This document shows, piece after piece, positions 34,493 to 61,389 of a DNA stretch of 64,000 bases. The notes under the pieces are model-generated. The model saw only the letters and a list, made by a program, of their open reading frames with translations. It was not told the DNA's origin and searched no databases. The stretch comes from Selenomonas sp. AB3002 (GTDB lineage: Bacteria > Bacillota > Negativicutes > Selenomonadales > Selenomonadaceae): contig NZ_JNIO01000008.1 of NCBI RefSeq assembly GCF_000702545.1, positions 310,001-374,000 of the forward strand. The letters are read 5' to 3'. A program made the translations under genes and the position numbers. Every line of letters starts with the position of its first letter. Within the stretch, counting starts at the first letter, position 1.

Positions 34493-34508
34493 AAAAGGAG
34501 CGGTGGAT

Positions 34509-35792
34509 ATGGAGAACCCGGAAAATCAGCTTAAGCATGAACTCATTCTCTATGGCAGAGGTCTGATTGCAGAGGAGTACTTCCGCTACCTGTCCCGAAA
34601 GGAACAGGCGGGAGAGGTCATGTGTTTTGCTGTGACCACCATGAACGGCCAGGGAGACACTTACTGCGGAAGGCCTTGTCTGGAAATTGAGCCGGCTTTG
34701 GCAAAATTCCCGCAGGCAGAGGTACATCTGGCTTTGCAGGAAAAATATCATGGGGAAGTCGTTTCCCTGCTGGAGAAGCTGGGGAGAAGGCCGGAACGGG
34801 TTATTGGCCTCCATCGCATGACGGAATTATTGGGAGAGCAGGGAATAAGGGAAATCAGCACCGCTTGTTCGGAATTAACGGTAAGGCGCAATCCCCATGA
34901 CTATTCCATGCTGGAAATCGCTGCTAGTGAGCATCCGGAAGAAAAGTTCACTTTTTACCCCATGACTCAAGTGCCTTTATCACCAGAGGATATGGCAAAG
35001 GTGCGTAGTTATGTGCAGGGAAATTTTTTCGAGGGCTGGGGTGGCATAAAAGATTTGGCAAAGTCTGCTTCAAGGCTTGAGGAAAATGTCCTTTACATAG
35101 CCATGGCCACTTCTGCCAAGGATGCCCTGGTCAGCCGTGAGGGCCTGCCGGGCTATGTACACACCGTGCTGGGAGGAGCCGCGGCCTATGAGGGGCAGCG
35201 CTCTGGAGAACTGGCATATGATGATGAAGGGAGAAATATCTCTCTTTATAATAACCTTTACTCGGAACTGACAGTTGCATACTGGCTGTGGCAGAAAGCA
35301 CCGCAGACTAAGTACCTGGGGTTATGCCATTACCGCAGGCATTTTGTGCTGCCTGCGGAAGTGCAGGGGGCTATAGCCAAAGGGGAGATAGACGTCCTTC
35401 TTACCCGCCCACGCCTTACTTTTCCAAGCGTGCGGGAATACTTTGCGAACCTACCAGTCACCACCATGGATGAGCTGGACTATGAAACAATGCTCAGATT
35501 GATAGAGAGTGAAGATTCTGAGCTGGCAAAGTTTTCAAGGGATTTCTTGGAGGGGCAGATTCATTTTCCCAATAACATGGTTATCGCAAAGAGAGATATT
35601 TATCTTGACTATTGTAAATTCATGTTCAAGGTGCTGCAGGGGATGCAGGAGCATTACAAGGGGAAAGGGACTCCCCGCCCGGACAGGTACCTTGGCTATG
35701 TGGGGGAACTGCTGACTACCGTGTACTTCGCCTATCATCGTGGGAGATGGCGGACAGGATTTATAGATTATCGACTGCTGAAAGAAGTATGA
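34509..35792 (+). CDS. DUF4422 glycosyltransferase with N-terminal Rossmann-like domain
   Basis: About 427 residues from ATG 34509 (GGAG ribosome binding site; GTG 34503 alternative). The N-terminal ~130 residues form a Rossmann-like unit beginning ELILYGRGLIAEEYFRYL, a recurring accessory domain in this cluster. The C-terminal ~240 residues are DUF4422, shown by YNNLYSELTVAYWLWQ, LGLCHYRRHF and FPNNMVIAKRDIYLDYCKF. DUF4422 proteins are found in capsule and exopolysaccharide loci and are believed to be glycosyltransferases. It is the first gene after the regulated promoter and is followed after 12 bases by a GT2. Confidence 0.8.
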   Translation: MENPENQLKHELILYGRGLIAEEYFRYLSRKEQAGEVMCFAVTTMNGQGDTYCGRPCLEIEPALAKFPQAEVHLALQEKYHGEVVSLLEKLGRRPERVIGLHRMTELLGEQGIREISTACSELTVRRNPHDYSMLEIAASEHPEEKFTFYPMTQVPLSPEDMAKVRSYVQGNFFEGWGGIKDLAKSASRLEENVLYIAMATSAKDALVSREGLPGYVHTVLGGAAAYEGQRSGELAYDDEGRNISLYNNLYSELTVAYWLWQKAPQTKYLGLCHYRRHFVLPAEVQGAIAKGEIDVLLTRPRLTFPSVREYFANLPVTTMDELDYETMLRLIESEDSELAKFSRDFLEGQIHFPNNMVIAKRDIYLDYCKFMFKVLQGMQEHYKGKGTPRPDRYLGYVGELLTTVYFAYHRGRWRTGFIDYRLLKEV

Positions 35793-35804: not shown

Positions 35805-37211
35805 ATGCCGGAAATATCCGTAATTGTGCCCCTGTACAATACAAGGAAGTATCTGCAGGAGGCTATTGATAGCGTACTAGCTCAGACTTTTCAGGATTTC
35901 GAAATCATAGTGGTAGATGACTGTTCAACGGATGGCAGCTGGGAACTGGTAAACAGGCTTTATGGAGAAAATGACAATGTCTGCCTGTATCGCCATGAAA
36001 ACAACAAGACAGCAGGTGGCGCCAGAAACACGGGCCTTGAGCACGCTAAGGGCAAATACATTGCCTTTTTGGACAGTGATGATCTCTATATGCCGGAGAC
36101 ATTGGAAATCATGCATAAGGCGGCCGAAAAGTACGGCGCGGAGGTAGTTCATTCCCCAGGTTGTTTGATACCCCAGGGAGATCAGGAGCAGATAAGGACA
36201 ACAGACGAATTCCGCACCATTCTCTTTGACGATATGTCAGCCTCAGAAAAGCCAGTGCTGATAAACGAAGACAAGGCCTATCGCGTGGAGCTTTGGGGCA
36301 GACGGAAACTTTACGGCACCATCTGGAACAAGCTTTTCAGAAAGGATTTCCTGGACAAGCATCACATACGCTTCGAGGAAAACTTAGTGCCGGGGCAGGA
36401 TGCCATCTTCCTGTTCCGTTGTATCTTCTATGCCAGAATCTACCTATGGATTCCGGACATCTTCTACATCTACCGCCGTCCTGTCACATCTGTGACCAGA
36501 AAAAAGCGGGATGCCAAATTTATCGCAATGCAGGCCAAAAATATTGCAGCGAAGATAAAGGCACTGGATACCTATATGGGTGACATCCCGTGGTTCAGTG
36601 ACAAACCGGAAGTACAGGACAAAGTTCGGGAGTTTGCCATTATCGACACTGACCCCTCCTTCATTCAGCAAGGCTACCACAGCCAGGGCCTGCTGGAGGG
36701 CAGTGAGGAAGAAATCCGCCAAGCCTTCAAGGATATTTACGGTGAGCAAGGCTATTTTGCCTATTGGTATTTCCATCACTATCATCTGCTGAAGGCAGGC
36801 GCGGGAGGAACCAATGAGGGCCAGTCATACATCTTCCCCTATCATCTTTTCCAAGAGGGAGAGAGAACCGTCATCTACGGCGCCGGAGAATCCGGCCAGT
36901 CCTTCTACCGCCAGTTGCAGCGGCAAAACTACCTCAAGCCCGTAGGTATAGTGGACAAAAGAGCCAAGGAACTTAAAACCCCGGACTTCCCCGTGCAACT
37001 AGTTGAAGACCTAAAAAAGATGGACTTCGATGCCCTTCTGATTGCCGTCATCAATGAAAAAGCAGCCAGGGAAATCAAGGCCATGCTCATTCAAATGGGT
37101 ATAGCAGAAAACAGGATTCGCTGGCAAGGAAATGCCTACACAGAAGATGACTATTACAACAACTACTATTTTCCCTTACTGAGAGAAAACCATCAAGCAA
37201 GACAAAACTAA
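35805..37211 (+). CDS. Family 2 glycosyltransferase with C-terminal Rossmann-like domain
   Basis: A 468-residue protein. The GT-A domain (residues 1-230) opens with ISVIVPLYNTRKYLQEAIDSVLAQTF and has VDDCSTDGS, GARNTGLEHAKGKY and the DxD-type FLDSDD. A helical stretch follows. The C-terminal 110 residues carry another copy of the cluster's accessory domain (TVIYGAGESGQSFYRQL, then VGIVDKRA, DALLIAVINE, and a final GIAENRIRW-like turn). The enzyme probably adds one sugar in the repeat unit of the surface glycan. The start follows GGGAGAGG. Confidence 0.85.
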   Translation: MPEISVIVPLYNTRKYLQEAIDSVLAQTFQDFEIIVVDDCSTDGSWELVNRLYGENDNVCLYRHENNKTAGGARNTGLEHAKGKYIAFLDSDDLYMPETLEIMHKAAEKYGAEVVHSPGCLIPQGDQEQIRTTDEFRTILFDDMSASEKPVLINEDKAYRVELWGRRKLYGTIWNKLFRKDFLDKHHIRFEENLVPGQDAIFLFRCIFYARIYLWIPDIFYIYRRPVTSVTRKKRDAKFIAMQAKNIAAKIKALDTYMGDIPWFSDKPEVQDKVREFAIIDTDPSFIQQGYHSQGLLEGSEEEIRQAFKDIYGEQGYFAYWYFHHYHLLKAGAGGTNEGQSYIFPYHLFQEGERTVIYGAGESGQSFYRQLQRQNYLKPVGIVDKRAKELKTPDFPVQLVEDLKKMDFDALLIAVINEKAAREIKAMLIQMGIAENRIRWQGNAYTEDDYYNNYYFPLLRENHQARQN

Positions 37212-37312: not shown

Positions 37313-38632
37313 ATGAAAATAGCAATCGCTGGCACCGGCTATGTCGGTTTCGTCACCGCCGTTTGCCTGGCCGAGCACGGCCACCAGGTAACCTGTGTGG
37401 ATGTGGACAAGCAGAAAATCGACAGCCTGAACCGCTACGGCAAGGCCCTGATCTACGAAAAAGACCTGGATGCCCTGATGGAAAAGAACAAGGAGCGCCT
37501 GACCTACACCACGGATTATGCCAGTGCCTACAAGGATGCAGAAATCATCTTTATCGGCGTGGGTACCCCGGAGAAAAGGGATGGCTCCGCCAATCTGAAC
37601 TACGTCTACGCCGTGGCCATGCAGATAGCGGAGACCGCAGAACGTGAGTGCGTGGTGGTAGTGAAATCCACTGTCCCCATCGGCACCAATGAACGAATCG
37701 AAAAGCTTATCAAAGAGCATAGAGTGGAGGGGGCAGCCCCACTCCATGTAGCATCTAACCCGGAGTTTTTGTCGCAGGGTACGGCGGTGCACGATACTCT
37801 CCATGCCTCACGCATCGTCATGGGGGTGGAGGATGACTACTCCAAAGCAAAGCTCACGGAACTCTACAAGGATTTCGCTGCCCCGAAGATCATCACCAAC
37901 CGCCGCAGTGCAGAGATGATCAAGTATGCTTCCAATGATTTCCTGGCGCTCAAGATAAGCTACATCAACGAAATCGCTAACCTTTGCGAGGAAATCGGGG
38001 CAGATATCGAGGACGTAGCCAAAGGCATGGGCTACGACAAGCGCATTGGCAGCAAGTTCCTGCGGGCAGGGATAGGTTATGGCGGGTCTTGTTTTCCAAA
38101 AGATACCAAAGCTTTGCACTGGCTATCTGACTATCATGAGCAGGAGCTGAAGACTGTCAAGGCGGCCATTGAGATCAATGACCACCAGAAGTTGAAGCTG
38201 ATTCGCAAGGCTCATAAGTACTATGAGGATTTGGAAGGTGTCACAGTGGCTGTGCTAGGGCTTACCTTCAAGCCTGGCACAGATGATTTGAGAGAGGCAC
38301 CGTCTCTCACCAATGTACCTATGTTGCTGGAGGAAGGGGCTATAGTGAGGGTTTATGACCCCATTGGTATGGAGCGGTTCAAGGAACTTTATCCTACTCA
38401 GGTGAAGTATTGCAAGGATATAGATACGGTCTTAAAAGGTGCGAAACTTTGCCTGATACTGACAGACTGGCCTCAGGTCAAGGAGTACCCGCTGGAAGGA
38501 TTTAAGAAGAATATGGAGAGGGCCATCGTGCTGGATGGCAGGAACTGTTATAGTTTGGCAGAGGCAGAGTCTGCTGGCATGACGTATGAGTCTATGGGTC
38601 GAAAGGCCATTGTGTCAAAATCAATGGAATGA
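37313..38632 (+). CDS. ugd: UDP-glucose 6-dehydrogenase
   Basis: A 439-residue UDP-glucose/GDP-mannose dehydrogenase family enzyme. It oxidises UDP-glucose twice with NAD to UDP-glucuronate. NAD-binding GTGYVGFVTAVCLAEHGHQV at the N-terminus, GVGTPEKRDGSANL, STVPIGTNER and NPEFLSQGTAVHD are visible. The catalytic cysteine lies in GYGGSCFPKDTKAL (about 260). The C-terminal domain has GLTFKPGTDDLREAPS. Complete length. It supplies uronic acid for the glycan made by the surrounding transferases. The gene follows an AAAAAGGAGC ribosome binding site. Confidence 0.95.
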   Translation: MKIAIAGTGYVGFVTAVCLAEHGHQVTCVDVDKQKIDSLNRYGKALIYEKDLDALMEKNKERLTYTTDYASAYKDAEIIFIGVGTPEKRDGSANLNYVYAVAMQIAETAERECVVVVKSTVPIGTNERIEKLIKEHRVEGAAPLHVASNPEFLSQGTAVHDTLHASRIVMGVEDDYSKAKLTELYKDFAAPKIITNRRSAEMIKYASNDFLALKISYINEIANLCEEIGADIEDVAKGMGYDKRIGSKFLRAGIGYGGSCFPKDTKALHWLSDYHEQELKTVKAAIEINDHQKLKLIRKAHKYYEDLEGVTVAVLGLTFKPGTDDLREAPSLTNVPMLLEEGAIVRVYDPIGMERFKELYPTQVKYCKDIDTVLKGAKLCLILTDWPQVKEYPLEGFKKNMERAIVLDGRNCYSLAEAESAGMTYESMGRKAIVSKSME

Positions 38633-38660: not shown

Positions 38661-40256
38661 ATGAGCAGGCGTACCAGGAAGAAGAACAGGCAAGTTGCGA
38701 GAAAAGCTTTGATTGAAGAAAAAAAAGTGACAGAAACAGGCAATAGCGCAGCTGCGGAAGCAAAAGAAGTAAAAGAAACAAAAGAAACAATCGTCAGAGA
38801 AGATGAAAAGACCAAAGCAAAAGAGATGCCAAAAGGTGGCTTGATTATATACGGTGCAGGGGATCATCTTAAGGATATGCTTGCCTGGCATAAAGACTTA
38901 GCCAGTAGAATTGCCAGGGTCGTAGATAAGAATGAAGCAAAGATCGGTCAAAAAGTGTACGGCCTTGATTGCAAAGTAGAGGCTCCCAAGGTTCTGAAGG
39001 AGCTTCCTGCAGGTACGCAAGTCGCTATTTCTGCTTTGCGCTATTATGGTGAGATTGTCAAAGAACTGCATGAGATCAATGCCGGCTTGGTTTGCCCAGA
39101 TATTGATCAGGCATACTCGTTTATGTGCCAATTTGAAGCCAGGGGTATGCTAGTGTATGGTGTGGGAGCGCACTTAGAGGATATGCTCGCCTGGCATCCT
39201 GACCTTAAGGGAAGGATTGCCAGAGTATTTGACAAGGACCAGAAGAGGTGGGGGCAGAAGGAACAGGGTACAGGGAGAACCATAGAGAGTCCTGAGGTAT
39301 TGAAGCGCATAGCACCAGGAACAAAGATTGCCATTTCTGCCATACGCTACTATGAAGAAATTGCTGAGGAAATATATGCGTTGAATCCAGGTCTGGTCTG
39401 CTTGGATATTGATGAAGCCTATGCCGCTATGCCTGTAATAAAAACTCCAGCGAAACCAGCTGCAGCAAAAACAGTTGTGGCAAAACAGAAGCCTGCCACG
39501 ACTGTTGCTGCACCAAAGCCGGTGGTAAAGGTGCGTAATGAAATGAGTGTCTTGCAGAAGCAGAGGCTTAGAGGAAAGGAGTCTGCCGAAAGATGGCGAC
39601 GCAAATTTCTTATTGAATGCGCCAATATGCGTAAAGTATTTTGGGGTACCAAGGGTGTGCGGGCCAATTATCTTATACAGGAATACCGTCCCTTCATGGG
39701 GAAGACGGATTTCTTTATTGATGAGGATGTGAATCTGCGTGGGCACATCAAGGCAGGGCTGCCAATTTGTGTGCCAGATGTGCTGAAGGATATACGTGGC
39801 AGATTCAAAATCATAATCCTGTCCCGTGATTATGCCAAGATTAGCGAGAAACTCAGGGATTATGGTTATATAGAGAATGTTGATTTTGTTGAGGGCAGGC
39901 AGCTTTTGGGGGAAGACGAGAACGGTTGTATTGATGTCCCCTGTGTGGACAAGACCAGGGAAGGTATGATTGTCTATGCTGAGTGCACGCATCTGGCAGA
40001 TATGTTGAAGGCGCATCCAGAACTGGCTTGGGCAATCTCTCGTGTTATTGACAAGGATAAGAAAAAGGTCGGCACCCTGGTCAAGGATGTTGGCGTATCG
40101 GTGGAGCCACTGGAAGTGCTGCGTGATGTGCCTGTGGGTACGGAGATAGTTGTAGCTGATATCGAAAATTTCCAGGCTGCCAAAAAGGATATGCTCGAGT
40201 TGCAACCTGGCGTTATTTGCAAAAAAATTGATGATGTATGGCGTGAGTATGTTTGA
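38661..40256 (+). CDS. Repeat protein made of Rossmann-like accessory domains
   Basis: A 531-residue protein without a known name. The N-terminus (1-55) is Lys/Glu-rich. Three homologous ~97-residue units follow at about 59-155, 162-258 and 435-531. They begin IIYGAGDHLKDMLAWH, LVYGVGAHLEDMLAWH and IVYAECTHLADMLKAH, each followed by an RV-DK turn, a P-G-T strand start and a final LVCxDID or similar motif. Between units 2 and 3 lie a Pro/Ala/Lys linker and a different Rossmann-like unit (about 320-425) with FFIDEDVN and GYIENVDFVEG. Similar single units are attached to neighbouring glycosyltransferases. The protein may bind nucleotide sugars or scaffold the enzymes; this is inference. No signal peptide. 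Confidence 0.6.
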   Translation: MSRRTRKKNRQVARKALIEEKKVTETGNSAAAEAKEVKETKETIVREDEKTKAKEMPKGGLIIYGAGDHLKDMLAWHKDLASRIARVVDKNEAKIGQKVYGLDCKVEAPKVLKELPAGTQVAISALRYYGEIVKELHEINAGLVCPDIDQAYSFMCQFEARGMLVYGVGAHLEDMLAWHPDLKGRIARVFDKDQKRWGQKEQGTGRTIESPEVLKRIAPGTKIAISAIRYYEEIAEEIYALNPGLVCLDIDEAYAAMPVIKTPAKPAAAKTVVAKQKPATTVAAPKPVVKVRNEMSVLQKQRLRGKESAERWRRKFLIECANMRKVFWGTKGVRANYLIQEYRPFMGKTDFFIDEDVNLRGHIKAGLPICVPDVLKDIRGRFKIIILSRDYAKISEKLRDYGYIENVDFVEGRQLLGEDENGCIDVPCVDKTREGMIVYAECTHLADMLKAHPELAWAISRVIDKDKKKVGTLVKDVGVSVEPLEVLRDVPVGTEIVVADIENFQAAKKDMLELQPGVICKKIDDVWREYV

Positions 40257-40310: not shown

Positions 40311-43300
40311 ATGATTAGGATTATTGGGACTAATCCTCAGATAGAGGCAATGTTTGCAGGCAAGTCAACCAAGAAAGATGGCAAAGGGATTTGCGTGTTT
40401 TGCGAGAAAACGGGCCAGGTTTTGGAACATGGCACAAAAAAACAGGAAGTGTTCAAGCGTTTTCGCTCCGAAAGAAGTTTTAGCCTGTCATCTTCCATGT
40501 TTGTGGAGGCAAGGGACTATTTCCATGCTGAAGTCAATCATCGGGAAGATATTGTACCCGTACTGGATGTGGAGGGGAATACGGCAGGTTATCTTTACTG
40601 GACACGCAATCGCCTCAGGGATAACAGCATTTATCAGGGGATTCCTGCTGTAGATTTCTGGGAATATGACTTTGAAAAGTATGCTAATGATTTTGTGCTT
40701 GATTGGGCAGACAGTTATGTCTTTTTGCAATTGGAGGAATACACGTATGCCATAGCCAGGCATATTTTAAGCAAGTTCCCAGAGAAGTCGGTCTATTTCC
40801 TTGACCCTTTGGCAGAATTGGCTGTCTGGGGCAAGGAGCAGGAACGCGTGAAAGTAATCGGTTCTTTCTATGATTTGCCAGAAAATTGCAGGCACACCTC
40901 TATGCAGATTACGACCTCAGAGTACAATGCCTATAGCGATCATGCGCCTGAATCAAAGAATCTTGTTTATAATTCTATAAATATCATGTATAGCATGCTG
41001 TGGGGCAAGTCCCTTTCACATCCGGGCAAAAAGCATCATGATAAGGTAGTGGTGCGACTTGACAATAAATTTGCCAGTGTGGGACTGGTAGATATCATCA
41101 AGATTGTCATGAACTTTGCTTATCAGGCAGAGCTGCAAGGCTATGTGCCTGTGGCAGACCTTACCCAGCCCGGTTGCTGTCAGTATTGGGAGCCGGGGAT
41201 CAATGTCTGGGAAGAACTTTTCAGACCATTGAGCGATATAAGGCCTGAGGAAACGGAAGATTGTGCCAATCTCATCAGTGCCCGTCAGGAGGAACGTGGC
41301 TGGCTGGTCAGCGACTGGCGCTCAAATCCCTTGTGGCGTGAGGCTGACTATAGAGGTCTGGCTACAGGCAGGTGGAGCAGCCAGCCTTGCCTGAGTGATA
41401 AAACCTGGAAATTCGTCAGGGAACATGCCCCCGAGCAGCTAAAAGCGCGCATAGAAATAGCTGCTCAAAATGAGGTGGATAAGGTAAAGCCTGTTTCATG
41501 TGCAGCTGACGGCCAACGCATACTTGGGGTGATCATCCGTGGTACGGATTACAGGAAAGAAGCCAATGCTGGTAACGAAAAGAATGCCAATAATGCCAGC
41601 GTAGAACAGATGCTTGGCTGGTGCAAAGATCTGATGAACACAGGTGGATATGACTATTTGTTCCTGGCTACGGAAGATGAAGATTATTTCCAGTTGTTTA
41701 AAGATAACTTCTCTGGTGACAAGCTCTTGTATGTAGACCAGCCACGGGTACATCTTGATTTGTCTCTGGGCAAGCGAATCACTACGGATGTACTTTTCAA
41801 GGATAAGAAAGTGGCAGGGCTTGAACTGGCAAAACTCTATCTGACTGCCTTGAAATGCTTGGTTGTTTGCGATGACCTGATTTCTTCCATGGATAATGGT
41901 ACATACAGGCAGGTCCTGCGGTGGAATGCAGGCAAATATGGACTGGCCAGGATTGTAAAAGATGGAGAAGCACTGCCTGTTTCTGTCAGGAAGGAGCCCC
42001 AGAAGGCAGTTCCGGCAGCGCCTAAGGCAGAAGCGCCTAAAAAGGAAGATGCGAAAAAGGAAGCACTGCCTAGTGCGGCGGCGCCTGCTGCAGTTCTAAA
42101 CTCTCAGGCACTGCTCAGTGACAGGCGCAGAGCACTATGGGTGGAGGGAAATCTGGCGCATCTCAAGAAACCGGAACTGTTGAGAGACGGAGATTTTTTC
42201 ATTGCCGATAATGGCTCCGATTGTGGTAGTTTCCTGCACGGTTCGCCGGTCTGCAGTCCCGAAGTTCTGCGAAGCATGGAAGATAAGCCAGTGGTGGTGT
42301 TGTTGTTGAAAGATGGCAGTGCCGCTAGGAAAAGGCTCCTTGCCCATGGTTATGTGGAGGGAACAGATTTCATATCTTCTTCTGATTTGCAGGCCAGGAC
42401 AAAAACGGAAGAAAAAGCTACCAATAGCTCAGAGCAGAAAGTGGCTCCTCTTGTGTCTATGGCAAAGGAAAAAATTTCAGAACCCGAAAAGACACCTGTG
42501 CTAGCACCTTTAAAAAAGCCAGCTACCAAGCCTCAGCCAGCTGCCAAGCCTCAGCCAGCCGCCAAGTCTCAATCAGCCGCCAAGCCTCAGCCGACTGCGC
42601 CCGTGAAGCAAAATCCTTATGATGAATTTCTTCGCAATTATGGTCAGGTTACTGAGCTTGACAGGTCGGATATGGCCAAGGATATTGCAAGTTTTGCAAA
42701 CCTGCCGCTCATATCCATTATCATGCCGGTCTATAATCCCAAGGAAAAGTTTTTCCGTCTGGCCTTGGACTCTGTTTTGGCTCAGACTTATCCTCGTTGG
42801 GAATTGTGCATGGCAGATGATGCATCCAGTGAACCTCATGTGAGGAAAGTCATAGAGGAGTACAGGAAGAAAGATGCCCGTATCAAGGTGGTTTATCGTA
42901 GCGAAAATGGGCATATCTGCAAGGCTGAGAACAGTGCCTTGGAAATGGCAATCGGAGAGTTCACTGCTCTGATGGATCATGATGATATCCTACAGCCGGA
43001 AGCGATTTATTGCGTGGCAAGGGAGATAAATACATCTCATGGCGAAGTGGATATGATCTATACGGACATGGATTACATAGATGGTGAGGGGCACAGGTCA
43101 AATCCCCGTTTTGGAGGAGATTTTGATCCCATCATTTTTGCTTCCTGGAATAATGTGGCTCATCTTGATGTCTATAGGACTTCAATTTTGAAGGATATGG
43201 GAGGATTCCGCCCTGGTTATGAGGGCAGTCAGGATCACGATATGACGCTGCGTTTCCTGAAGCATACGAAGCTGGAGAGGATACATCACATTCCCCATGT

Positions 43301-45101
43301 CTGCTATAGTTGTAGAAAGTTGGCAGGTGATGAAAGCATAGAGCCTTTCAAGGTAAGTGATATATGTGTAAAGCCTGATAAGCCTGTGTCAGAACCAATG
43401 GTCTCCATAATAATACCTACTAAGGACAAAGTTGATATCTTAAAGGACTGCGTAGAAAGCATTCTGGCAGTGACAGATTATCCTAATTACGAAATTATTA
43501 TTATAGATAACCGAAGTGAAGAACAGGAGACTAAAACATATTTTAAAGAATTGCGCAAAAGGAAAAATGTGCGCGTTTGTCGCTACGACCATCCATTCAA
43601 TCATTCTGGCATATGCAATTTTGGTGTAAAGAAATCTAAGGGAGACTGTTATCTCTTCCTTAACAATGATACCAAGATGATGGAGCCAGGGTGGCTGGCA
43701 AGCATGGTGAGGGAGTTGAATAGGGAAAAGGTAGGTATTGTAGGGGCGAAACTGCTGTATGGAAACGGCAAATTGCAGCATGGCGGAATCGGACTTCGTG
43801 GTGTAAGAATAGCCCATCATCCTGGCTTGGGGACCATGGGAGATCTTGCAGGATATTGTGGTGCTTTGAAGGTTACAAGACAATGCTCTGCAGTTACTGG
43901 AGCTTGCTTGCTTATGAGGCGCGAAGCTTTTGAGAATGTACAGGGCTGGGATGAAGATAACCTGCCGGAAAGCTTCAATGATGTAGATCTTTGCTTGAGA
44001 GCTAGAAAAAATGGCTGGAAGGTAGTTTTTGATGCTCATGCAGTTCTTTACCATTTGGAGTCAATTTCTAGAGGTCATTCTTGGAATAAACCCAGAGATA
44101 TAGCAAGGCAGGAGATGGAGAGAAAAGCACGTCATGTCATGCTGGATCGCCATGGCAGAGAACTTTTTAATGATCCATTTTATAACCCGAATTTGAGCTG
44201 GGATGAACCGACCTACAGAATAGCAAAATTTCCTGCAGTGTCGAAACCTTGGCGCCCTTGGATAGAGTTGGTATGTCCATTCCCGCTTGGAGAGATTTTG
44301 GTGGGAGTTCAGGCGGCCTGTCATGCTTACAGACAGGGAGTGAAATTGAGATTGCATGTGGCGGCAGAGTATCTGCCGTGGTTGTCAGATTTCCAGTTGC
44401 CATTCGCGGTACTTCCTTTGTTCATTGCTGTTCCTGCTGAGGGAAAGAGTGAGGCAGCTTATCGAAAGGCTTGTGAGCAGGTGGCTGCTCTGCCGGATTC
44501 ATCTGGCCTTGTTGTAGGAACTTGTCCCAAAGATTCTTTTGAAAGGGATCACAGGCTTAATATCGTTGAATATCTTCTGAGCCAGTTGCGACTTCCTATC
44601 GGTGAGAGGTTGGAGCGCTTTTTGCCTGAGGCCAAAGAGCTTGGCAAGGAGGTCAAAGAACTACTGTCTGGAAAGATTGCCTTGTTACAGGTGACAGGTG
44701 ATCAGAAGCAGTCAGATTTGCCACAAGAAGTGGCAGAGAAAATGGTGAATCTGTTGCACAAGACGGGATTCCGCGTGGTGCAGATTGGCATGAACGAGAC
44801 TGAATTGGCAAAGGGAGTTGATGCCTGCCTGTTTGAAGCGGGTACGGCAGGCTTCTGGTACACGGTATTTATGCAGGTGGATTTAATTGTCAGCGCTGAT
44901 TCCTGGACTGCACATCTGGCCACTGTGCTGGACATGCCTTTGATTGAAATATTTGGAGGAACTACGTCAGATGATTATTTTAGCAGACCGTTCTTTGAGA
45001 AAGGTACATCTGGCAGTTTGATTTTGGAGAATTTCATATTGAGTGAAAAAAGTATATGTGATTTTTGCCTCGGATTAGCAGGTTGTGCCAATAAAGTATG
45101 A
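40311..45101 (+). CDS. Giant multidomain glycosyltransferase with four apparent catalytic modules
   Basis: A 1596-residue protein. Modules in order: a fucosyltransferase-like region (about 200-560) with VVVRLDNKFASVG and LGVIIRGTDYR near 404, a motif like those of GT23/NodZ enzymes; a Rossmann-like unit (about 605-705) ending HGYVEGTDF; a Pro/Ala/Lys linker with a repeated PQPAAK motif (about 735-770); a first GT2 domain (about 798-1000; ISIIMPVYNP, DHDDI near 889); a second GT2 domain (about 1029-1300; VSIIIPTKDK, LNNDTK near 1117, FNDVDLCLR); and a GT9-like domain (1312-1596; ADSWTAHLATVLDMPLIEIFGG). It could add several sugars in sequence. Single frame, no internal stops. The start follows AGGAGCG. 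Module names are from motifs only. Confidence 0.78.
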   Translation: MIRIIGTNPQIEAMFAGKSTKKDGKGICVFCEKTGQVLEHGTKKQEVFKRFRSERSFSLSSSMFVEARDYFHAEVNHREDIVPVLDVEGNTAGYLYWTRNRLRDNSIYQGIPAVDFWEYDFEKYANDFVLDWADSYVFLQLEEYTYAIARHILSKFPEKSVYFLDPLAELAVWGKEQERVKVIGSFYDLPENCRHTSMQITTSEYNAYSDHAPESKNLVYNSINIMYSMLWGKSLSHPGKKHHDKVVVRLDNKFASVGLVDIIKIVMNFAYQAELQGYVPVADLTQPGCCQYWEPGINVWEELFRPLSDIRPEETEDCANLISARQEERGWLVSDWRSNPLWREADYRGLATGRWSSQPCLSDKTWKFVREHAPEQLKARIEIAAQNEVDKVKPVSCAADGQRILGVIIRGTDYRKEANAGNEKNANNASVEQMLGWCKDLMNTGGYDYLFLATEDEDYFQLFKDNFSGDKLLYVDQPRVHLDLSLGKRITTDVLFKDKKVAGLELAKLYLTALKCLVVCDDLISSMDNGTYRQVLRWNAGKYGLARIVKDGEALPVSVRKEPQKAVPAAPKAEAPKKEDAKKEALPSAAAPAAVLNSQALLSDRRRALWVEGNLAHLKKPELLRDGDFFIADNGSDCGSFLHGSPVCSPEVLRSMEDKPVVVLLLKDGSAARKRLLAHGYVEGTDFISSSDLQARTKTEEKATNSSEQKVAPLVSMAKEKISEPEKTPVLAPLKKPATKPQPAAKPQPAAKSQSAAKPQPTAPVKQNPYDEFLRNYGQVTELDRSDMAKDIASFANLPLISIIMPVYNPKEKFFRLALDSVLAQTYPRWELCMADDASSEPHVRKVIEEYRKKDARIKVVYRSENGHICKAENSALEMAIGEFTALMDHDDILQPEAIYCVAREINTSHGEVDMIYTDMDYIDGEGHRSNPRFGGDFDPIIFASWNNVAHLDVYRTSILKDMGGFRPGYEGSQDHDMTLRFLKHTKLERIHHIPHVCYSCRKLAGDESIEPFKVSDICVKPDKPVSEPMVSIIIPTKDKVDILKDCVESILAVTDYPNYEIIIIDNRSEEQETKTYFKELRKRKNVRVCRYDHPFNHSGICNFGVKKSKGDCYLFLNNDTKMMEPGWLASMVRELNREKVGIVGAKLLYGNGKLQHGGIGLRGVRIAHHPGLGTMGDLAGYCGALKVTRQCSAVTGACLLMRREAFENVQGWDEDNLPESFNDVDLCLRARKNGWKVVFDAHAVLYHLESISRGHSWNKPRDIARQEMERKARHVMLDRHGRELFNDPFYNPNLSWDEPTYRIAKFPAVSKPWRPWIELVCPFPLGEILVGVQAACHAYRQGVKLRLHVAAEYLPWLSDFQLPFAVLPLFIAVPAEGKSEAAYRKACEQVAALPDSSGLVVGTCPKDSFERDHRLNIVEYLLSQLRLPIGERLERFLPEAKELGKEVKELLSGKIALLQVTGDQKQSDLPQEVAEKMVNLLHKTGFRVVQIGMNETELAKGVDACLFEAGTAGFWYTVFMQVDLIVSADSWTAHLATVLDMPLIEIFGGTTSDDYFSRPFFEKGTSGSLILENFILSEKSICDFCLGLAGCANKV

Positions 45102-45151
45102 TTGATTTAAATAAATGTTATGTTATATAGGATTATACGGTGTGGTAAGGG

Positions 45152-45427
45152 GTGAAAGCTTTGCTATTAGGTGAAGAATTACTTGAAGTATTAGTAAGTA
45201 TGGAGTTGCTATCTGATAAGGATATAGCAAGGTTATATGCTCGGATTATAACTGGTAAAAATAGATTATCATGTGAAAGTTTGTTTAGAAAATTAATCAT
45301 ATTAAAACCAAATTCTTATGAGGCTAGAAGATGCTTGGCAGAATGTTTAATGCTGTCGTTAAAATTTAAAGAGGCTGCAAATGAATGGCAGAAAATAAAC
45401 CTTTCGAGGAGAATAATTGCGTTTTAG
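45152..45427 (+). CDS. Small TPR-like protein, probably truncated
   Basis: A 91-residue frame starting GTG 45152 (TTG 45161 possible), with AAGGGGTG upstream. The middle, SLFRKLIILKPNSYEARRCLAECLMLSLKFKEAANEWQKI, looks like two tetratricopeptide helices. The last residues run into sequence that in another frame resembles the end of an acetyltransferase, so the gene was probably fused to a relic and lost its own 3' part. AT-rich DNA begins here. It may be a fragment of the longer TPR proteins common in glycan loci. Confidence 0.4.
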   Translation: MKALLLGEELLEVLVSMELLSDKDIARLYARIITGKNRLSCESLFRKLIILKPNSYEARRCLAECLMLSLKFKEAANEWQKINLSRRIIAF

Positions 45428-45476
45428 CCTGTATTCCTGCCAGAATTGTAAAACGGGAGTGTAATTGGTCATTTTG
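45384..45476 (+). pseudogene. 3' relic of a hexapeptide-repeat acetyltransferase
   Basis: In this frame the translation contains ENNCVLACIPARIVKR, the characteristic C-terminal turn of CatB/WbbJ-type O-acetyltransferases (usually a V-A-G-x-P-A-K/R-I-I-K pattern). The catalytic coils are missing and the sequence overlaps the 3' end of the TPR-like frame. It indicates that an acetyltransferase gene was deleted here. Confidence 0.45.
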
Positions 45477-45498
45477 ATGCAGAGGAGTGCATAGAGAA

Positions 45499-47503
45499 AT
45501 GTTTTCAGCTGGGAGATATCTGTATTATAGGGGATTCTATATTGTTAAAAATGATGTAGTGTTGCCAAATTTTGATAGGTATAACATAGATGGTGAGTAT
45601 AGTCTTTTTGTACACTGTGAGCAAACGATAAAAGAAGTCAAAAATGATAAAATGAAATTATGGGTTATAGGAATATTTTACAACCTAGATGGATTTCAAT
45701 TAGAAGATGTAAAGCGATTTGAGGACTTAGAAGGGATTCTTTACAATACATGTGGGCGTTATATAATCGTAGTTTTATGTGATAAAGAGATAAGAATATA
45801 TGGCGATCCATCAAATTCAATGTCATATTGTTATTCCATAAAGAGTGATGTAGTGGCAAGTTCGTCAAAACTATGCGCCTTTTTATCAAATGATATGGAG
45901 AAGTCTGATATTGATAGGATTTATCAACAATTGGGACTAACTAAAGGGTTTGGATATATTACAAATGAAACATCTTACAAGGATGTTTTTTGGGGAATTC
46001 CTAATTTTTATTTAAATATGTTGCAGAAAAGATTAGTTAGATTTTTCCCGAATCATAAAAATCCTTTTATGGGATTGAGTATAGGCGAATGTGTTTTAGA
46101 AATACAAAAAAATATGCAAAAACAGATACACTTTTTAAAAAGTATTTGTAGTAATATAGTCATGGAGATTACAGGGGGGGGTTGATTCTAGATTTGCTCT
46201 AATTATGTGTAGTAAGTTTGCAAATCAAATAAGATTCTATACTTATGATATTAATGGTTTTTTTAAAGATGATATCACTTCAGTAAAACGGATTGTAGAT
46301 AGATACAAGTTGAACTACATAATGTATGATATTCCTACAAGTTCCTATGAAACATATAATAACTATTGGTGCTTTAGAGAAATCACTTGTATGAATAATG
46401 ATATACCACAACATATACCACAATTAGCCTATTTCTTAGCAGAAAAATTTCATGATAAAAATGCTATACGAATTTATTCAAGAATTTCTGAAATAGGTAG
46501 AGCGTATATACCTTCGTATGACTATATGGGAGATATGAGACTTGTTCATGCAGAATTGGTGCATGTTCAAAGAAAAAACAAGGATTTAATTGAAGCAATC
46601 TTATTAGATCAAAATGAGAGTTTATACAAAAAGGCTAGAGAATTTCTGTCCATACTTAACTATGATGATATAAAAAATCTTGGTTACGATGAATTGGATT
46701 TATTCTACAATGAGAGACGCATGGGGATGTGGAATGGGCAAACTTGTATCGATTTTGAAGCAGCTTTTATGAATAGTATTTCGTTGTATAATAATAGAAA
46801 AGTTATGGATATATTACAGTCTAGGCCGTTTGTAGAACGTGTGCAAAGCTGTATTTATAATATGGTGTTGGATTCTGATTCTGTGATTGGTGCAGATAAA
46901 AGGGAAAGGTTGCTTAAAAGGATAAAATTATTGATAGATAGAAGATTTTTGGACGACGCAATAATGTTACTTAATAGCAAAACTATGATGCAAGAGAAAC
47001 CTTTTATGGCATATAGAGAACTGGCAAGGTGTTATTATTGGAAGAAAGATTTCGAAAAGGCTGTACAGTTTATGGATGCGGCTATAAAGTTAAATCCTGT
47101 ATATAATCATAATCCATGGTTTGTGAGAGAGAAGTGCTGCTATTTGTATATGGGAGGTGAATATGAAAAATGTATAGAATATATTTTCTCAGTAAAGCGT
47201 GGTGCAGAGATGGATTATGTCATGTTGGCTAAATCGTACGCAAGATTGAATGATGAGAAGGCATATACATATGCAAAAAAATGCTTTGAAATAAATACTG
47301 ATAAACTGTTGCTTATACATGGATATCCAGAACAAGCAGAAATATGGAAAGACTTATTTGCAATAGTGTCAGCAAAAGAAAACGATGTAATGTTCTACAG
47401 GAAAAAATATGAAATTTATGTTAAGTCTAGAGGCATAAAGATGTACCCGTCATGGTATGGTGAAATGTTTGAGTTAAACAAGAAGGAAATGTTTATAAAA
47501 TAA
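45499..47503 (+). pseudogene. Asparagine-synthase-like protein split by a frameshift in a G8 tract
   Basis: Two frames (to 46185 and from 46205) join perfectly if one G is removed from the run at 46174-46181: the sequence then reads TGGVDSRFALIM, the PP-loop of asparagine synthetase-type amidotransferases. Before it lies a region with GRYIIVVLCDKEIRIYGDPS, like the N-terminal part of such proteins, but a class II glutaminase cysteine at position 2 is lacking. The second part (about 430 residues) ends in TPR-like repeats (AYRELARCYYWKKDFEKAVQFMDAAIKLNP). In the present phase translation stops right after the loop at 46183. It may be a phase-variable ON/OFF gene rather than a dead one. The likely role is ligase chemistry on a sugar or lipid. 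Confidence 0.75.
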
Positions 47504-47543
47504 TCATTTTTGCGAGGTGCTAATGTTATGAATAGGAGAATAA

Positions 47544-47902
47544 TTTGATGCAGCTTTCTCGTCACATTGCATAGAACATCAGGAAAATTTTATCCGTCAC
47601 CTTGACAATGTATCAAATATTCTGAATCCCCGGGGGCGTACTATCTCTGTATTCCAGACAAGAGGTATATTTTTGATCATTATAAACCAGTAACTACTTT
47701 TGGTGAATCGATAGATGAGTATATTGATTCCAGATTAAGTTTTAGAAAATATTTTAATATGATACTATCTGTTCATAATGACTGCAAACAACATTGGAAT
47801 GGATTACATGGAGATAGAAAACTTACGTCCAAAGATATTAAAGATTTATTTGAAAAGAGACAGATGTTGAATTCTCTGTGTCAGAATATTTTTCTCATGT
47901 GA
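47544..47902 (+). pseudogene. Truncated, frameshifted SAM-dependent methyltransferase
   Basis: The translated stretch reads FDAAFSSHCIEHQENFIRHL, then NILNP, and after a one-base slip at C4G5 (47628-47636) continues YYLCIPDKRYIFDHYKPVT. This is the central part of a class I methyltransferase of the type found in glycan loci (an SSH-x-IEH motif followed by GG-Y and IPDKR). The N-terminal SAM-binding half is missing and no ribosome binding site is seen. The frame ends at 47902, 22 bases before the next gene. It fills most of the gap between 47504 and 47923. Confidence 0.6.
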
Positions 47903-47923
47903 AATGAAAAAGGAGAGATGTAG

Positions 47924-49189
47924 TTGGTATCGGGGTTAGTTTCAATTATTATGCCAACTTATAATAGAGCAAGGATTATAAGTGATGCTATAAAATCTGT
48001 TTTATCGCAAGAGTATGGTGATTTTGAACTCATTATTGTAGATGATGGTTCAAAAGATAATACGGAATTAGTGGTGAGGCAGTTTAAAGATGAGCGAATT
48101 ATATATCATGCATATCATCCTAATCAAGGGGGGAATCATGCCAGAAATGTTGGATTGAGATTATCTAAAGGAGAATACATAGCTTTCCTAGATACAGATA
48201 ATAAATGGGAAAGCTCCTTTTTAACAAAACAGATTGAAACATTGAACAGGTTAAAGGCTGATTTTTGTTTTTGTAGATTAGCTATACATGAAGAACATAA
48301 AACGCAGATTGTCCCATCAGAAGCTAATGAATTATTCCATTCGGAAAGATTATTAGATAATGCAAAACTGGTGCGTGCAATGCTGGGGGGCAACCAGATA
48401 GATACTAATATTGCATGCATGAGACGTAGGTGTATTGATGAAAACCAAGGATTTAATGAAAAATTGAGACGATTGCAGGATTGGGAGTTTTTCTGCCGGG
48501 TAATATTGCCACAGAAATATAAAGTAGCATTTATACCAGAAGTGATGGTTCACAGCTTTATTCAAAAGGACAGCATAAGATATAAATATGATTTTATAGC
48601 AGGTTTTCTTTATGTGTTTGAGCTATGGATGGATTTATATAAAGCACATGATATGGTGGATGCTCAGTGTGAAAGAATTATCCGTCTTAGTATGGATTCC
48701 AAAAGAAAGATAGCCAGGCAGGATGCTTTGGTGGGGTTATTAAGACTGGTATCAGAGGATACTATTAAGCGTGCTATTAAGAAACTTAAACTGAAGTCAT
48801 ATAATCTTGAGAAAGCTAAAAAAATCGTATGCAATTCTGTATGCATTGGGCAATATCAATCTATTCTTAGTATTATCGAGGGTAAAAACTTGATTATTTA
48901 TACTGATGATGATTCTTTGCAATCAAAACTTCCAGCAGTAGATAAGATGTTTTTGAATCACGTAAACTTTATTGCGTGTGATGATATAGAAAATGTTAAA
49001 GGGGTGGAGAATGGTATACCAGTTATTCACTCGTCATATTTAGAGGAGGGAATTTCTAAAATGTTTATCATGATTTTAGGTAACTCAAACTTCGCACAAG
49101 AGAAACAGGCCAGCACCTATGTGCGGTGTAGAGCCATGACTCCTAGAAAGTCTGCCTCATGCACAGCGTTTCAAACACTTGTTCCATAA
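47924..49189 (+). pseudogene. Family 2 glycosyltransferase interrupted at its 3' end by an IS element
   Basis: The TTG start follows AAGGAGAG. Residues 1-230 are a GT-A domain: VSIIMPTYNRARIISDAIKSVL, VDDGSKDN, GGNHARNVGL and the FLDTDN DxD-like motif. The C-terminal part (about 300 onward) is another copy of the cluster's Rossmann-like accessory unit (NLIIYTDDDSLQSKL). At 49082 the gene enters an IS element and the frame runs on to 49189 in IS sequence. Rejoining 49082 to 50668 restores the ending GNYNEHKKYIESLGYVENVDF, so the intact protein would be about 416 residues. The catalytic domain is intact, so the truncated protein could still be active. Confidence 0.8.
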
Positions 49190-50661
49190 ATTCGGCAGAT
49201 TTTCCAAGAACAAATCGAGCATCATGTCCAGTTCCTTTTCCATAAAAAACGTCTTTCCCTTTACCGTAGCAATAAGTTCTTTCAAGAGCAACACCAAGGC
49301 ATCGAGATAACGCAGATCCTGCAATTCGTCATAAGCGAGATAGAATAGCTCACCTATGCTCCGTTTATCGACATTCCGGCGCTGCTCTAGTGACAACATC
49401 ATATACCTTGCAAATACAACGGATACATGTGATGTCATTGCATCATAAGACAGAGCGTGGCTTTCTTTCCCAAGTTTCAGGAATGACTTGCATATCTTGA
49501 AGAAAACCTCGATATTCCAGCGCTTTCCATAAGTCTGGATGATGTCTTCCTCAGACAAACAGGTATCTGTGGATACCAAGATTAGATAGTCCTTGGGGTT
49601 GCTTCTGTTCCTAACGAAAACGAGTTTGACTGGCAGAGTTTTTCCTTCCTTTACCACCGCCGCCTCTACTGAAAGCAGATACTTTGAGCAACCAGGACGC
49701 TTTTTAGACTGGCGAAAGATTGCCATTACACTCTTCATGCGTTCGTCATGAAGGAAATGACTGTTTTCAGACTTTTTTACCATAGCAATGGCATCGAAGC
49801 CGAGTTCCTTGACTTGAACAAGGGAAGACGGTGAACAGAACCAGGTGTCAAAAAGAACGTAGCGGGCTGGAATCTCCATAGATTTTGCCTCAGCCAAGAG
49901 CTTCTGCATAACAACGGTAGCCTTAGTCTGTGCCAGCTTGCGCTGTTTCCCGCCGTTGCTACGCGAGTCGATCTTATCCGAAGACTCCTGCAGCCGATTG
50001 ACACGATTGGCAGATGAAAGCAGACAGTGGCTGAGTGGCAGAAACGAATTCCCATCACTCCAGCCGAGAGTCAGCATGCGGAACCCCCGCGTATACTTGT
50101 GCTCGACGTGGTCAAACACCTTGGCAAGCAGCTCCACATTCTTGGAACGTGCCCTGCTTAACAAGGAGTCATCGATGATAAGCACGTTGCGCCGGTTTTC
50201 ATTGGTAAGAGGTACAATTTTTTGAATGATGGATTTACCAAGCTGCAGAGTGAATTTGCGCCAGTTGACACAACTGGAATTCATGAAACGGTAAAAGGTA
50301 TCTTTAGCAAAGGGAATAACAGATGAATCCATCTTTTCCTGCTGATAAAAGGACTTGTTGCGAAAGGCATTCTCGAACGCAACCTTAAACACATTGCTTA
50401 CAGAGAAACCGCGAACCTTATAGGCATTGCAGGCCTTGAGTATCTTGCCAACATGGAATTCTTCCAGGAAACAAGATATTTTTGAAGAAAGTTGTTCACC
50501 AAAGATATGATTCTGTGATACAATGTTCATGGCATAAGCCCTCCGTTTATGTTATGATTGCTGTCACTTTCATTATACAAAACGGAGAGAGCTTATGCTA
50601 TTTTTTTAGGAAATGGTACAAGTCGAATAATTTGGCAGTTTCACAACTGCGAAGTTTGAGT
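49083..50661. mobile_element. Complete IS4-family insertion sequence with target duplication
   Basis: The 1579-base element has terminal inverted repeats beginning ACTCAAACTTCGCA on both ends (14 identical bases, then partial identity to about 24). The flanks show a 6-base direct repeat, TAGGTA, at 49077-49082 and 50662-50667. It carries one transposase gene on the minus strand. It inserted into the GT2 gene, whose reading frame is restored by removing the element and one copy of the repeat. Confidence 0.93.
49157..50530 (-). CDS. IS4-family DDE transposase
   Basis: A 457-residue transposase. The first catalytic aspartate is in VLIIDDSLLSR, the second in YVLFDTWFCSP, and the glutamate lies in the IS4 signature Y-(2)-R-(3)-E-(6)-K, here YGKRWNIEVFFKICK. 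A beta-strand insertion between the second aspartate and the glutamate is present, as is usual for this family. The ATG at 50530 has GGAGGG eight bases upstream. The frame is intact, so the element may be active. It is oriented opposite to the gene it interrupts. Confidence 0.95.
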   Translation of the reverse strand: MNIVSQNHIFGEQLSSKISCFLEEFHVGKILKACNAYKVRGFSVSNVFKVAFENAFRNKSFYQQEKMDSSVIPFAKDTFYRFMNSSCVNWRKFTLQLGKSIIQKIVPLTNENRRNVLIIDDSLLSRARSKNVELLAKVFDHVEHKYTRGFRMLTLGWSDGNSFLPLSHCLLSSANRVNRLQESSDKIDSRSNGGKQRKLAQTKATVVMQKLLAEAKSMEIPARYVLFDTWFCSPSSLVQVKELGFDAIAMVKKSENSHFLHDERMKSVMAIFRQSKKRPGCSKYLLSVEAAVVKEGKTLPVKLVFVRNRSNPKDYLILVSTDTCLSEEDIIQTYGKRWNIEVFFKICKSFLKLGKESHALSYDAMTSHVSVVFARYMMLSLEQRRNVDKRSIGELFYLAYDELQDLRYLDALVLLLKELIATVKGKTFFMEKELDMMLDLFLENLPNLWNKCLKRCA

Positions 50662-50667
50662 TAGGTA

Positions 50668-50759
50668 ATTATAATGAACACAAAAAATACATTGAATCAT
50701 TAGGTTATGTTGAAAATGTTGATTTTATGGATTTAGGACAGATTATGAGTTGCAGGTAA
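50668..50759 (+). pseudogene. Detached 3' end of the IS-interrupted glycosyltransferase
   Basis: Read in phase with 47924-49082 it gives NYNEHKKYIESLGYVENVDF and a few more residues before TAA at 50757. The GYVENVDF turn matches GYIENVDF in the 531-residue repeat protein of the same cluster, confirming it as the end of an accessory domain. Confidence 0.8.
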
Positions 50760-50790
50760 AATACGAGCACTGGTGTTTTTTGGTAGGTGA

Positions 50791-51066
50791 ATGCTCTTGG
50801 CAAATACAGAATTCAAGTGGGAAAAAGGGAAGATAGGCAATACATCTATCGGTAGATGTTCTTATGGATATGAAGCTTTCTTGAAGCCCTTTGGATTTAA
50901 CTGTAAATCCATTGGTAGCTTTTGCTCTATTGCCAATGGAGTTTCAGTGCTTGATAATCATCCATTTATGGTGACAACTTCACCATTTCTTGATCTAGGG
51001 GCACCATTTAGTGATGGTGAGGCTGAGTTTTCCAAGTACTATTGTACATGTGAAACATCAAACTGA
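50791..51066 (+). pseudogene. 5' part of a CatB/WbbJ-type O-acetyltransferase
   Basis: A 91-residue frame with NTSIGRCSYGYEAF, FNCKSIGSFCSIANGVSVLDNHP, typical of the first left-handed helix coils of xenobiotic/virginiamycin-type acetyltransferases. The catalytic histidine would be that in DNHP. The expected second half (IGNDVWIG coils and the PAK-I-I end) is missing: the frame ends inside the 147-base direct repeat. It likely lost its 3' half through recombination at that repeat. A short ribosome binding site (GGTGAATG) precedes the start. It could also encode a non-functional short protein. Confidence 0.6.
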
Positions 51067-51179: not shown

Positions 51180-51252
51180 AAATAATAGAGAGTGGGAACA
51201 TTTCATCGTAATAGAGTAAAGGGGAATGTGCTCTGAGGAGGTTTTAATAATT

Positions 51253-53349: not shown

Positions 53350-53460
53350 AATTTTTACATTTAGATTACGATTGTTGTAAATGCGTTGGGAGAGTAGCTG
53401 TTCGTAAGTAGCGTGGGAGTCGATTTCAGGCAACTCCAGCATGATGTTCACCTTCTTTAT

Positions 53461-60200: not shown

Positions 60201-60366
60201 GGTGCCGCTCCTTTCTCTCAGTATAGCACAAATTAAGTTGCCACAAAATGTTTTCCCTGTTACTTCAACGGAATATATGTTCTGTTTTAGGTTAATTATA
60301 ACATCTTGCATGATGATTGTATATATCTCTTGTAAATTTTCTCACTAATATGAAGGAGTGTTTCTA

Positions 60367-61389
60367 TTGAAAATTGCACTAATCACCAGCATCACCGGCC
60401 AGGATGGTTCCTATCTCACCGAGCTTCTGCTCGCTAAAGGCTACGAAGTTCACGGCATTATCCGCCGTCATAGCACACCTTGCACAGATCGCATTGATCA
60501 TCTCCTGTCAGACCCTGCCAACAGGGAGCGTCTTTTCCTCCACTATGGCGACCTGACGGATTCCTCTAACTTTCATCGTCTGCTCACGGAGATAAAGCCT
60601 GATGAGGTTTACAACTTGGCGGCTCAGTCCCATGTGGGAGTGTCCTTTGAGGTGCCAGAGTATACGGCTGAGGCTACCGGGGTGGGGACGGTGAAGATGC
60701 TGGAGGCTATTAGGCAGTCGGGACTGCCCATCAGGTTCTATCAGGCTTCCACTTCGGAGCTTTTCGGCGGCATTCCGGGGACGGCTCCACAGAGTGAGGC
60801 TACGCCTTTCTATCCCAAGTCTCCCTATGGGGCGGCGAAGCTCTACAGCTATTGGATCACCAAGAATTACCGTGAGGCCTATGGCATGTTTGCCTGCAAC
60901 GGCATTCTTTTCAACCATGAATCACCTCGCCAGGGCGAGACTTTCGTCACCCGCAAGATTACCTTGGCAGTGGGAAGGATTATGACTGGCAAGCAGGAGA
61001 AGCTGAGTCTGGGCAATATGGATGCCAAGCGTGACTGGGGCTTTGCCGGGGATTATGTGGAAGGCATGTGGCTCATGCTGCAGCAGGAGAAACCGGATGA
61101 TTTTGTCCTCGCTACCAATGAGACTCATACCGTCCGCGAATTCGTGGAACTGGCTTTCAAGGAAGCTGGCGTGGAAATCGAATGGCGTGGTGCCGGTGTG
61201 GAGGAAAAAGGCTACTGCAAGAAGACAGGCAAGCTCTTGGTAGATGTAGACCCGCAGTTCTTCCGTCCTGCCGAAGTTGAGCTGCTCTGGGGCGACTGCA
61301 CCAAGGCAGAAAAGGAACTGGGCTGGCAGCGCAAGGTCAGCTTCCCGCAGCTTGTGAAGATGATGGTAGGAGCAGACAGGATACAGTAA
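60367..61389 (+). CDS. gmd: GDP-mannose 4,6-dehydratase
   Basis: About 340 residues from TTG 60367 (GAAGGAGTG upstream; GTG 60358 alternative). It turns GDP-mannose into GDP-4-keto-6-deoxymannose, precursor of fucose, rhamnose or related deoxysugars. NADP motif [56 protein letters not shown], the Y-x-x-x-K in [12 protein letters not shown], and [17 protein letters not shown] are intact. A fucose-type reductase (fcl) is not present. The GDP-mannose supply genes manC and manB are only relics here, so the substrate must come from elsewhere in the genome. Confidence 0.95.

Follow-up and report, generated by a model that had tools for sequence, protein, structure and literature searches.

Gene surroundings and module layout

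The window, that is, the whole stretch of DNA analysed, comprises 64,000 nucleotides of the Selenomonas sp. AB3002 genome, which consists of 8 contigs and is 99.8% complete. An uninterrupted ORF starting with ATG at 40311..45101 (+) encodes a protein of 1596 aa, hereafter P0001. Four genes on the same strand precede it with short gaps, encoding a DUF4422 protein, a GT2 protein, a member of the UDP-glucose/GDP-mannose dehydrogenase family (probably a UDP-glucose dehydrogenase) and a 531-aa protein. The features referred to below are as follows.

34503..35792 (+), DUF4422 protein, with which the duplicated cassette begins
35805..37211 (+), single-GT2 cassette protein
37313..38632 (+), cassette member of the UDP-glucose/GDP-mannose dehydrogenase family, sharing 88% identity with the copy on contig C2
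38661..40256 (+), 531-aa protein with Rossmann-like units, directly upstream of P0001
40311..45101 (+), P0001, four-module glycosyltransferase (from the ORF, Pfam and the paralogue P0002)
40311..41027 (+), residues 1-239, N-terminal extension belonging to the first module and retained by its close relatives
41028..41990 (+), residues 240-560, predicted NodZ/FUT8/POFUT-like GT-B catalytic module (profile and model)
41538..41549 (+), R410-G411-T412-D413 motif
42111..42425 (+), residues 601-705, accessory unit common to the 38661..40256 product and its C2 counterpart
42517..42592 (+), PQPAAK linker, an 18-bp tandem repeat of 4.2 copies, approximately residues 736-761
42666..43325 (+), GT2-1, residues 786-1005, with DHDD (889) and GSQD (972)
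43383..44210 (+), GT2-2, residues 1025-1300, with FLNND (1116) and NDVDLC (1223)
44247..45098 (+), residues 1313-1596, GT9-like GT-B module (profile-profile comparison and model)
60358..61389 (+), gmd, GDP-mannose 4,6-dehydratase (546.7 bits, cut-off 415)

Pfam recognised two GT2 stretches in P0001, with best ranges of 802-924 and 1029-1250, as well as a weak GT9 stretch at 1520-1553, with no match before residue 790. With the profile and structure comparisons described below, the order of modules was NodZ-like, GT2-1, GT2-2 and GT9-like GT-B. The earlier note had seen one unbroken chain with four glycosyltransferase modules, and this was upheld, the ORF being intact and each of the four folds being supported by a profile or a predicted model.

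The window also carries rmlABC-type genes, a UDP-sugar dehydrogenase gene and gmd. Adjoining the P0001 gene, neither a flippase nor an exporter gene was identified; an Rfam search gave no match and a tRNA search found none. Window positions 45001-55500 have a low GC content (31-43%) and encode a DDE transposase, an AbiH-like abortive-infection protein and GT2 and GT92 proteins; this stretch looks recently acquired. A near-identical pair of genes, regulator-like and helix-turn-helix-like as read by eye, occurs at 57689-58751 and again at 62811-63688, and the second gene is present once more at L125:5872-6204. The pair is perhaps a small mobile unit.

The first module

A family was built outward from the genome itself, beginning with P0003 and P0004 (same genome) and P0005 (genome G004), which share 36-40% identity with the first module of P0001, and continuing with shorter relatives. 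An alignment of 26 rows was drawn from the copies of the same genome, L037 and the loci of a scan of 189 genomes of the taxonomic family, leaving out fragments and near-duplicates, including L050, L051, L055, L058, L061, L063-L065 and L067. Residues R410, G411 and D413 were invariant in all 26 rows. When the resulting profile was searched against PDB sequences, NodZ was matched at E 3.4e-6, FUT8 at 0.014 and POFUT2 at 0.034; all 11 matches were fucosyltransferases, with other families absent up to E 10. The FUT8 sequence VIGVHVRRTDK was aligned against LGVllRGTDy of the profile, which places R410 on the RRTD motif of FUT8, and we take the Arg of that motif to be R365. In Pfam, P0001 itself had no match to the NodZ/FUT8 models up to E 1, two relatives touched them below the cut-off at 15.6 and 12.5 bits, and at the cut-off no model recognised the first-module region in the eleven proteins scanned.

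The AlphaFold2 model of the first module (pTM 0.78, mean pLDDT 77) has the GT-B fold of the GDP-fucose fucosyltransferase group. Its best structural match over residues 240-557 was NodZ (Z 13.3, rmsd 4.2, 234 aligned), followed by POFUT2 (Z 13.2), FUT8 (12.3), POFUT1 (11.4) and AtFUT1 (9.6). The first non-fucosyltransferase was WaaC with a Z of 8.2, so that, among the matches listed, fucosyltransferases came first and heptosyltransferases next. Foldseek returned POFUT2 at 6e-7 and NodZ at 1.9e-6. Within the N-terminal extension, residues 122-233 were weakly Rossmann/MurC-like on structural comparison (Z 7.6).

Enzymes of the NodZ/FUT8/POFUT type are described as users of GDP-fucose that share a single fold across GT23, GT37, GT65 and GT68, and R365 is described as the invariant donor-binding Arg of FUT8 (PMC7014118). 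By its profile and predicted fold, the first module is a divergent relative of these fucosyltransferases. The GT23/NodZ-like motif (IIRGTDYR) of the earlier note is in line with the top structural matches (NodZ, POFUT2 and FUT8), the profile match to NodZ and the aligned Arg motif.

The accessory unit, the linker and the GT2 modules

Approximately residues 601-700 were 25-31% identical to a unit in the 38661..40256 product and in its C2 counterpart, with E-values of 6e-6 and 1.5e-6 in a search of the whole genome. The earlier note had claimed a Rossmann-like accessory unit for the chain; this unit is related to part of the directly upstream product, which has Rossmann-like units. The PQPAAK repeat linker, likewise claimed earlier, is real at the DNA level as the 18-bp tandem array; it is missing in the paralogue P0002.

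Both predicted GT2 modules combined a GT2 profile match with a DXD-type motif, DHDD (889) in GT2-1 and NND within FLNND (1116) in GT2-2, and a tandem pair of the same kind is present in P0008, a protein from another genus. Relative to P0002, GT2-1 of P0001 has a deletion of 27 residues at its C-terminal end, and C stands in place of the W in its YxWR motif.

The last module

For the last module, the match of P0001 to Pfam GT9 (PF01075) was 18.6 bits against a cut-off of 22, rising to 23.2 bits when in-frame pieces were summed. A two-row profile of the module gave no glycosyltransferase match among PDB sequences. Comparison by hhalign with an alignment of 10 GT9 proteins (10 of the 20 GT9-like ORFs extracted, with the GT2-2 tail trimmed off) gave 96.4% and an E-value of 1.4e-9 over the C-terminal half, while the first module, used as a negative control against the same GT9 profile, gave 0.1%.

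The predicted model (pTM 0.80) has a WaaC/WaaF-type GT-B fold, leaning to GT9 because the 10 GT9 proteins were included in the alignment on which it was built. Its best structural matches were WaaF (Z 15.9, rmsd 4.0, 249 aligned), a Veillonella GT9 protein (15.9), TibC (15.5) and WaaC (14.1), in keeping with the GT9-like last module of the earlier note. A glycosyltransferase fold was therefore found in both the first (240-557) and the last (1313-1596) segment, the two in which its absence would have counted against that note.

The catalytic residues D13, K192 and D261 of WaaC were not all retained in P0001. At these positions, of which the first two are presumed to lie within the aligned motifs, P0001 has E1328, S1468 and D1530, P0002 has G, N and D, and P0008 has D, K and D. 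In WaaC, the substitutions D13A, K192A and D261A are reported to lower activity approximately 4700-, 930- and 2000-fold, respectively (PMC5713226). Since the K192 equivalent is lost and D13 is replaced by E, the last module of P0001 appears GT9-like in fold but its full activity is doubtful. Of the four apparent catalytic modules in the earlier note, the four folds stood; four working active sites were not supported, given the GT9-like module without a K192 equivalent and GT2-1 shortened by 27 residues.

The presence of POFUT2 and TibC among the top structural matches of the two end modules raises the alternative that P0001 glycosylates proteins, such as an adhesin or flagellin, as those enzymes do, and not a lipid-linked glycan. 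This appears quite improbable, as the cassette includes a UDP-sugar dehydrogenase and other glycosyltransferases, the window has rml genes and P0008 adjoins ABC-transporter genes that are wzm/wzt-like (read by eye).

A second copy and unequal change of the modules

The same four-module fusion is encoded on another contig, C2, by P0002 (L028:8815-13497:-), a protein of 1560 aa that is 70, 79 and 53% identical to P0001 in three stretches and is preceded by homologues of the four genes that lie upstream of P0001. The possibility that separate genes had been joined by an assembly or annotation artefact is practically nil, because this syntenic cassette carries the fusion as a diverged second copy in the same order and in an open frame. 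Beyond P0002, the C2 cassette continues (L028:4627-8674) with a protein in which a Rossmann-like N-terminal unit is combined with two stretches of group-1 glycosyltransferase, then a sulfotransferase and then P0004, another first-module protein; the glycan of this cassette may be sulfated.

Pairwise dN/dS between P0001 and P0002 was 0.09 for residues 1-239, 0.06 for GT2-1, 0.14 for GT2-2 and 0.21-0.27 for the last module, values that are rough because dS, at about 2 where computable, is near saturation; for residues 240-560, dS was saturated and gave no ratio. The near-saturated dS also indicates that the duplication is old and that both chains have been kept.

P0008 (genome G204, L073:7927-10698:-), with 923 aa, consists of GT2-GT2-GT9 only. 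Because it has these modules without the first, the NodZ-like part was probably added onto a three-module GT2-GT2-GT9 enzyme, and in the simplest history suggested by the sequences this occurred before the cassette was duplicated. P0008 served as outgroup in relative-rate tests from which gapped columns were dropped. GT2-2 showed 44 P0002-specific versus 10 P0001-specific changes (p 3e-6), the last module 29 versus 15 (p 0.049) and GT2-1 9 versus 11, all resting on one distant outgroup. For the first module, no significant rate asymmetry was seen with P0003, P0004 or P0005 as outgroup. In GT2-2 of P0002, NND has become NCG and the DXD motif is lost.

These differences could reflect a division of labour by decay, in which equal four-module paralogues now each use only some of their modules, P0002 acting via the first module and GT2-1, and P0001 mainly via the first module and GT2-2. 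The faster change of P0002 in GT2-2 and the GT9-like module, the even rates of GT2-1 and the first module, the NCG motif, the G and N that P0002 has in place of D13 and K192 and the deletion in GT2-1 of P0001 are all consistent with such a division. Set against this are the single outgroup behind the P0008-based rates and the otherwise strong conservation of P0001 GT2-1 (83% identity to that of P0002, with the low dN/dS given above), on account of which this module may still work. We regard decay of this kind as possible, with a likelihood somewhat short of even.

Donor sugar genes

The earlier note had pointed to gmd, for a GDP-deoxysugar donor, in the same locus. The gene is indeed intact, approximately 15 kb from P0001 past the low-GC, transposase-bearing stretch; fucose as the donor did not find the same support. 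A second gmd on C2 (424 bits) adjoins an unassigned SDR gene, a candidate reductase, and an intact mannose-1-phosphate guanylyltransferase gene (manC) is at C2:689879-691240 (525.6 bits). With the GDP-L-fucose synthase model at its strict cut-off of 500 bits, no protein of the genome passed. The best match was a 112-residue 3′ remnant at C8:187957-188292 (L125:3760-4314; 146.7 bits), and the best full-length match reached 82 bits. The remnant adjoins a transposase fragment, 5-6 kb downstream of P0003, and a neighbouring phosphomannomutase-like frame is split in two pieces. In the window, 61869-62818 holds a remnant of a mannose-1-phosphate guanylyltransferase gene, an N-terminal piece followed by an isomerase-like end fused to the C-terminal domain of a phosphomannomutase, an arrangement resembling a manC-manB pair collapsed by a deletion.

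In genome G206, gmd (537 bits) is preceded by two first-module relatives, the second overlapping it, and this gmd in turn overlaps a full-length GDP-fucose-synthase-like (Fcl-like) gene (324 bits). As gmd is intact in Selenomonas sp. AB3002 and a full-length GDP-fucose synthase was not found there, the donor of the first module is read as probably a GDP-6-deoxyhexose, fucose in the relatives and uncertainly so here. The first module might instead use another GDP-sugar, GDP-D-rhamnose or a derivative, and not GDP-L-fucose. The finding of a synthase remnant and of no full-length gene, and the SDR gene beside the second gmd, would fit this; the exclusive matching of the PDB profile to fucosyltransferases (11/11), the Fcl-like gene in the G206 run and the chance that an Fcl with an unrecognised sequence exists would not. 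On balance this alternative donor is a realistic prospect, though we would not expect it.

Distribution

The first-module profile matched 43 of 189 genomes of the family at E 1e-5, mostly distantly, and 2 of 398 genomes of a phylum sample at E 1e-10, the genome of origin included. At E 1e-6, the last-module profile had matches in 2/380 genomes from the class and in 1/398 from the phylum sample, again with the genome of origin counted in both. The whole four-module chain was present in 1 of 6 genomes of the genus, that of the window, and in none outside it among the genomes searched; a scan of genome contigs yielded 2 loci from 63 candidate stretches. Searches of plasmids by tblastn with either end of P0001, and of IMG/VR with the last module, gave no match.

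Some first-module relatives have settings of their own. Those at L035:3066-4454(-) and L043-L046, of about 455-460 aa, seem to be flanked by a MATE-transporter-like gene and an anti-sigma-factor-antagonist/kinase-like gene (neighbours read by eye), which seems an unexpected setting for a glycosyltransferase-type fold. One relative in the same genome as P0001, L031:3068-4519(-), is directly 3′ of an NRPS-like gene (read by eye). The IMG/VR scan produced one weak first-module relative (L080:1090-1925, 27% identical) on a putative viral contig.

Proposed function

Taken together, the modules and their surroundings incline us slightly towards P0001 being a multi-module glycosyltransferase with a part in making a glycan of the cell surface, of which it would build one portion, with sugars added successively from one chain. 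For the donors, the acceptor, the order of addition, docking and the type of pathway, we infer the following. The NodZ/FUT8-like first module would transfer a sugar carried by GDP, with a 6-deoxyhexose such as fucose or a related sugar as the likeliest candidate, and GT2-1 and GT2-2 would each add a further sugar from other nucleotide donors. The GT9-like module would be an inheritance from the GT2-GT2-GT9 ancestor that is now weak or structural in P0001, and docking of the chain on the 38661..40256 product may be the role of the accessory unit. Several findings sit uneasily with this function, namely the missing full-length Fcl, the lack of an identified flippase or exporter beside the gene, the changes in GT2-1 and the GT9-like module and the failure of P0001 alone to match a NodZ/FUT8 Pfam model. 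The four-module layout of the earlier note is confirmed as an observation, and its interpretation is partly supported: the folds of the two end segments, the two GT2 modules and the linker stand, four working active sites and fucose as the donor found no support, and for processive assembly of a large part of a repeat unit the results speak neither way.

A broader reading joins these elements. A four-step glycan enzyme, made of a NodZ-like fucosyltransferase-type module and a GT2-GT2-GT9 polymerase, would have been duplicated with its cassette, the copies then losing different modules and, together or each with its own docking partner, making a pair of related glycans for the surface; the first module would stand at the centre of a new family in bacteria that bridges rhizobial NodZ and the fucosyltransferases of animals and plants. 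As a whole this combination is speculative and rather unlikely.

Comparison with known systems

NodZ of Bradyrhizobium (GT23) was the best profile and structure match of residues 240-557, with the Arg motif aligned, yet the aligned identity was only 16-17%. NodZ is a single domain of approximately 330 aa, whereas P0001 adds about 240 N-terminal residues and three glycosyltransferase modules. WaaF, WaaC, TibC and the Veillonella GT9 protein 3tov were the best fold matches of residues 1313-1596 and differ from P0001 in its lost K192 equivalent and its E in place of D13. With at least distant matches in 43/189 genomes, the first module broadens the range of the NodZ/FUT8 fold to include a group within the Selenomonas family.

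Chains with several glycosyltransferase modules that build O-polysaccharide are described in WbbB of Raoultella/Klebsiella O12, with three modules, and in ORF6 of Klebsiella O7, with two GT2 modules (PMC11231755, PMC9587256). These differ in their GT99/GT102/GT103 modules and in the terminator and coiled coil, and a NodZ-like module is not described for them. Chlorovirus A111/114R, of 860 aa, is reported to contain three glycosyltransferase domains, including a fucosyltransferase (PMC7826918); it is viral, and that domain was modelled on H. pylori FucT (2NZW) and not on NodZ. Four domains in one chain are not new either, since the viral proteins Ma468 of Moumouvirus (1666 aa) and R496 of Tupanvirus are annotated with four glycosyltransferase domains (PMC10117803). 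Multi-module surface-glycan glycosyltransferases are thus already known; the family combination in P0001, a NodZ-like module with GT2-GT2-GT9, was not encountered in the titles and opening abstracts of the open-licence papers that the literature searches listed.

For the last three modules the closest relative is P0008, which has them in the same order and a GT9-like part that is 34% identical with its key residues intact, but is without the NodZ-like module, the accessory unit and the repeat linker. Multi-module glycosyltransferases are a natural means of fixing the sugar order of a repeat unit. Because the two paralogues show module-specific decay, assembly module by module is testable, and the two four-module proteins with their different losses, together with the three-module P0008, form a ready set for assigning sugars to modules.
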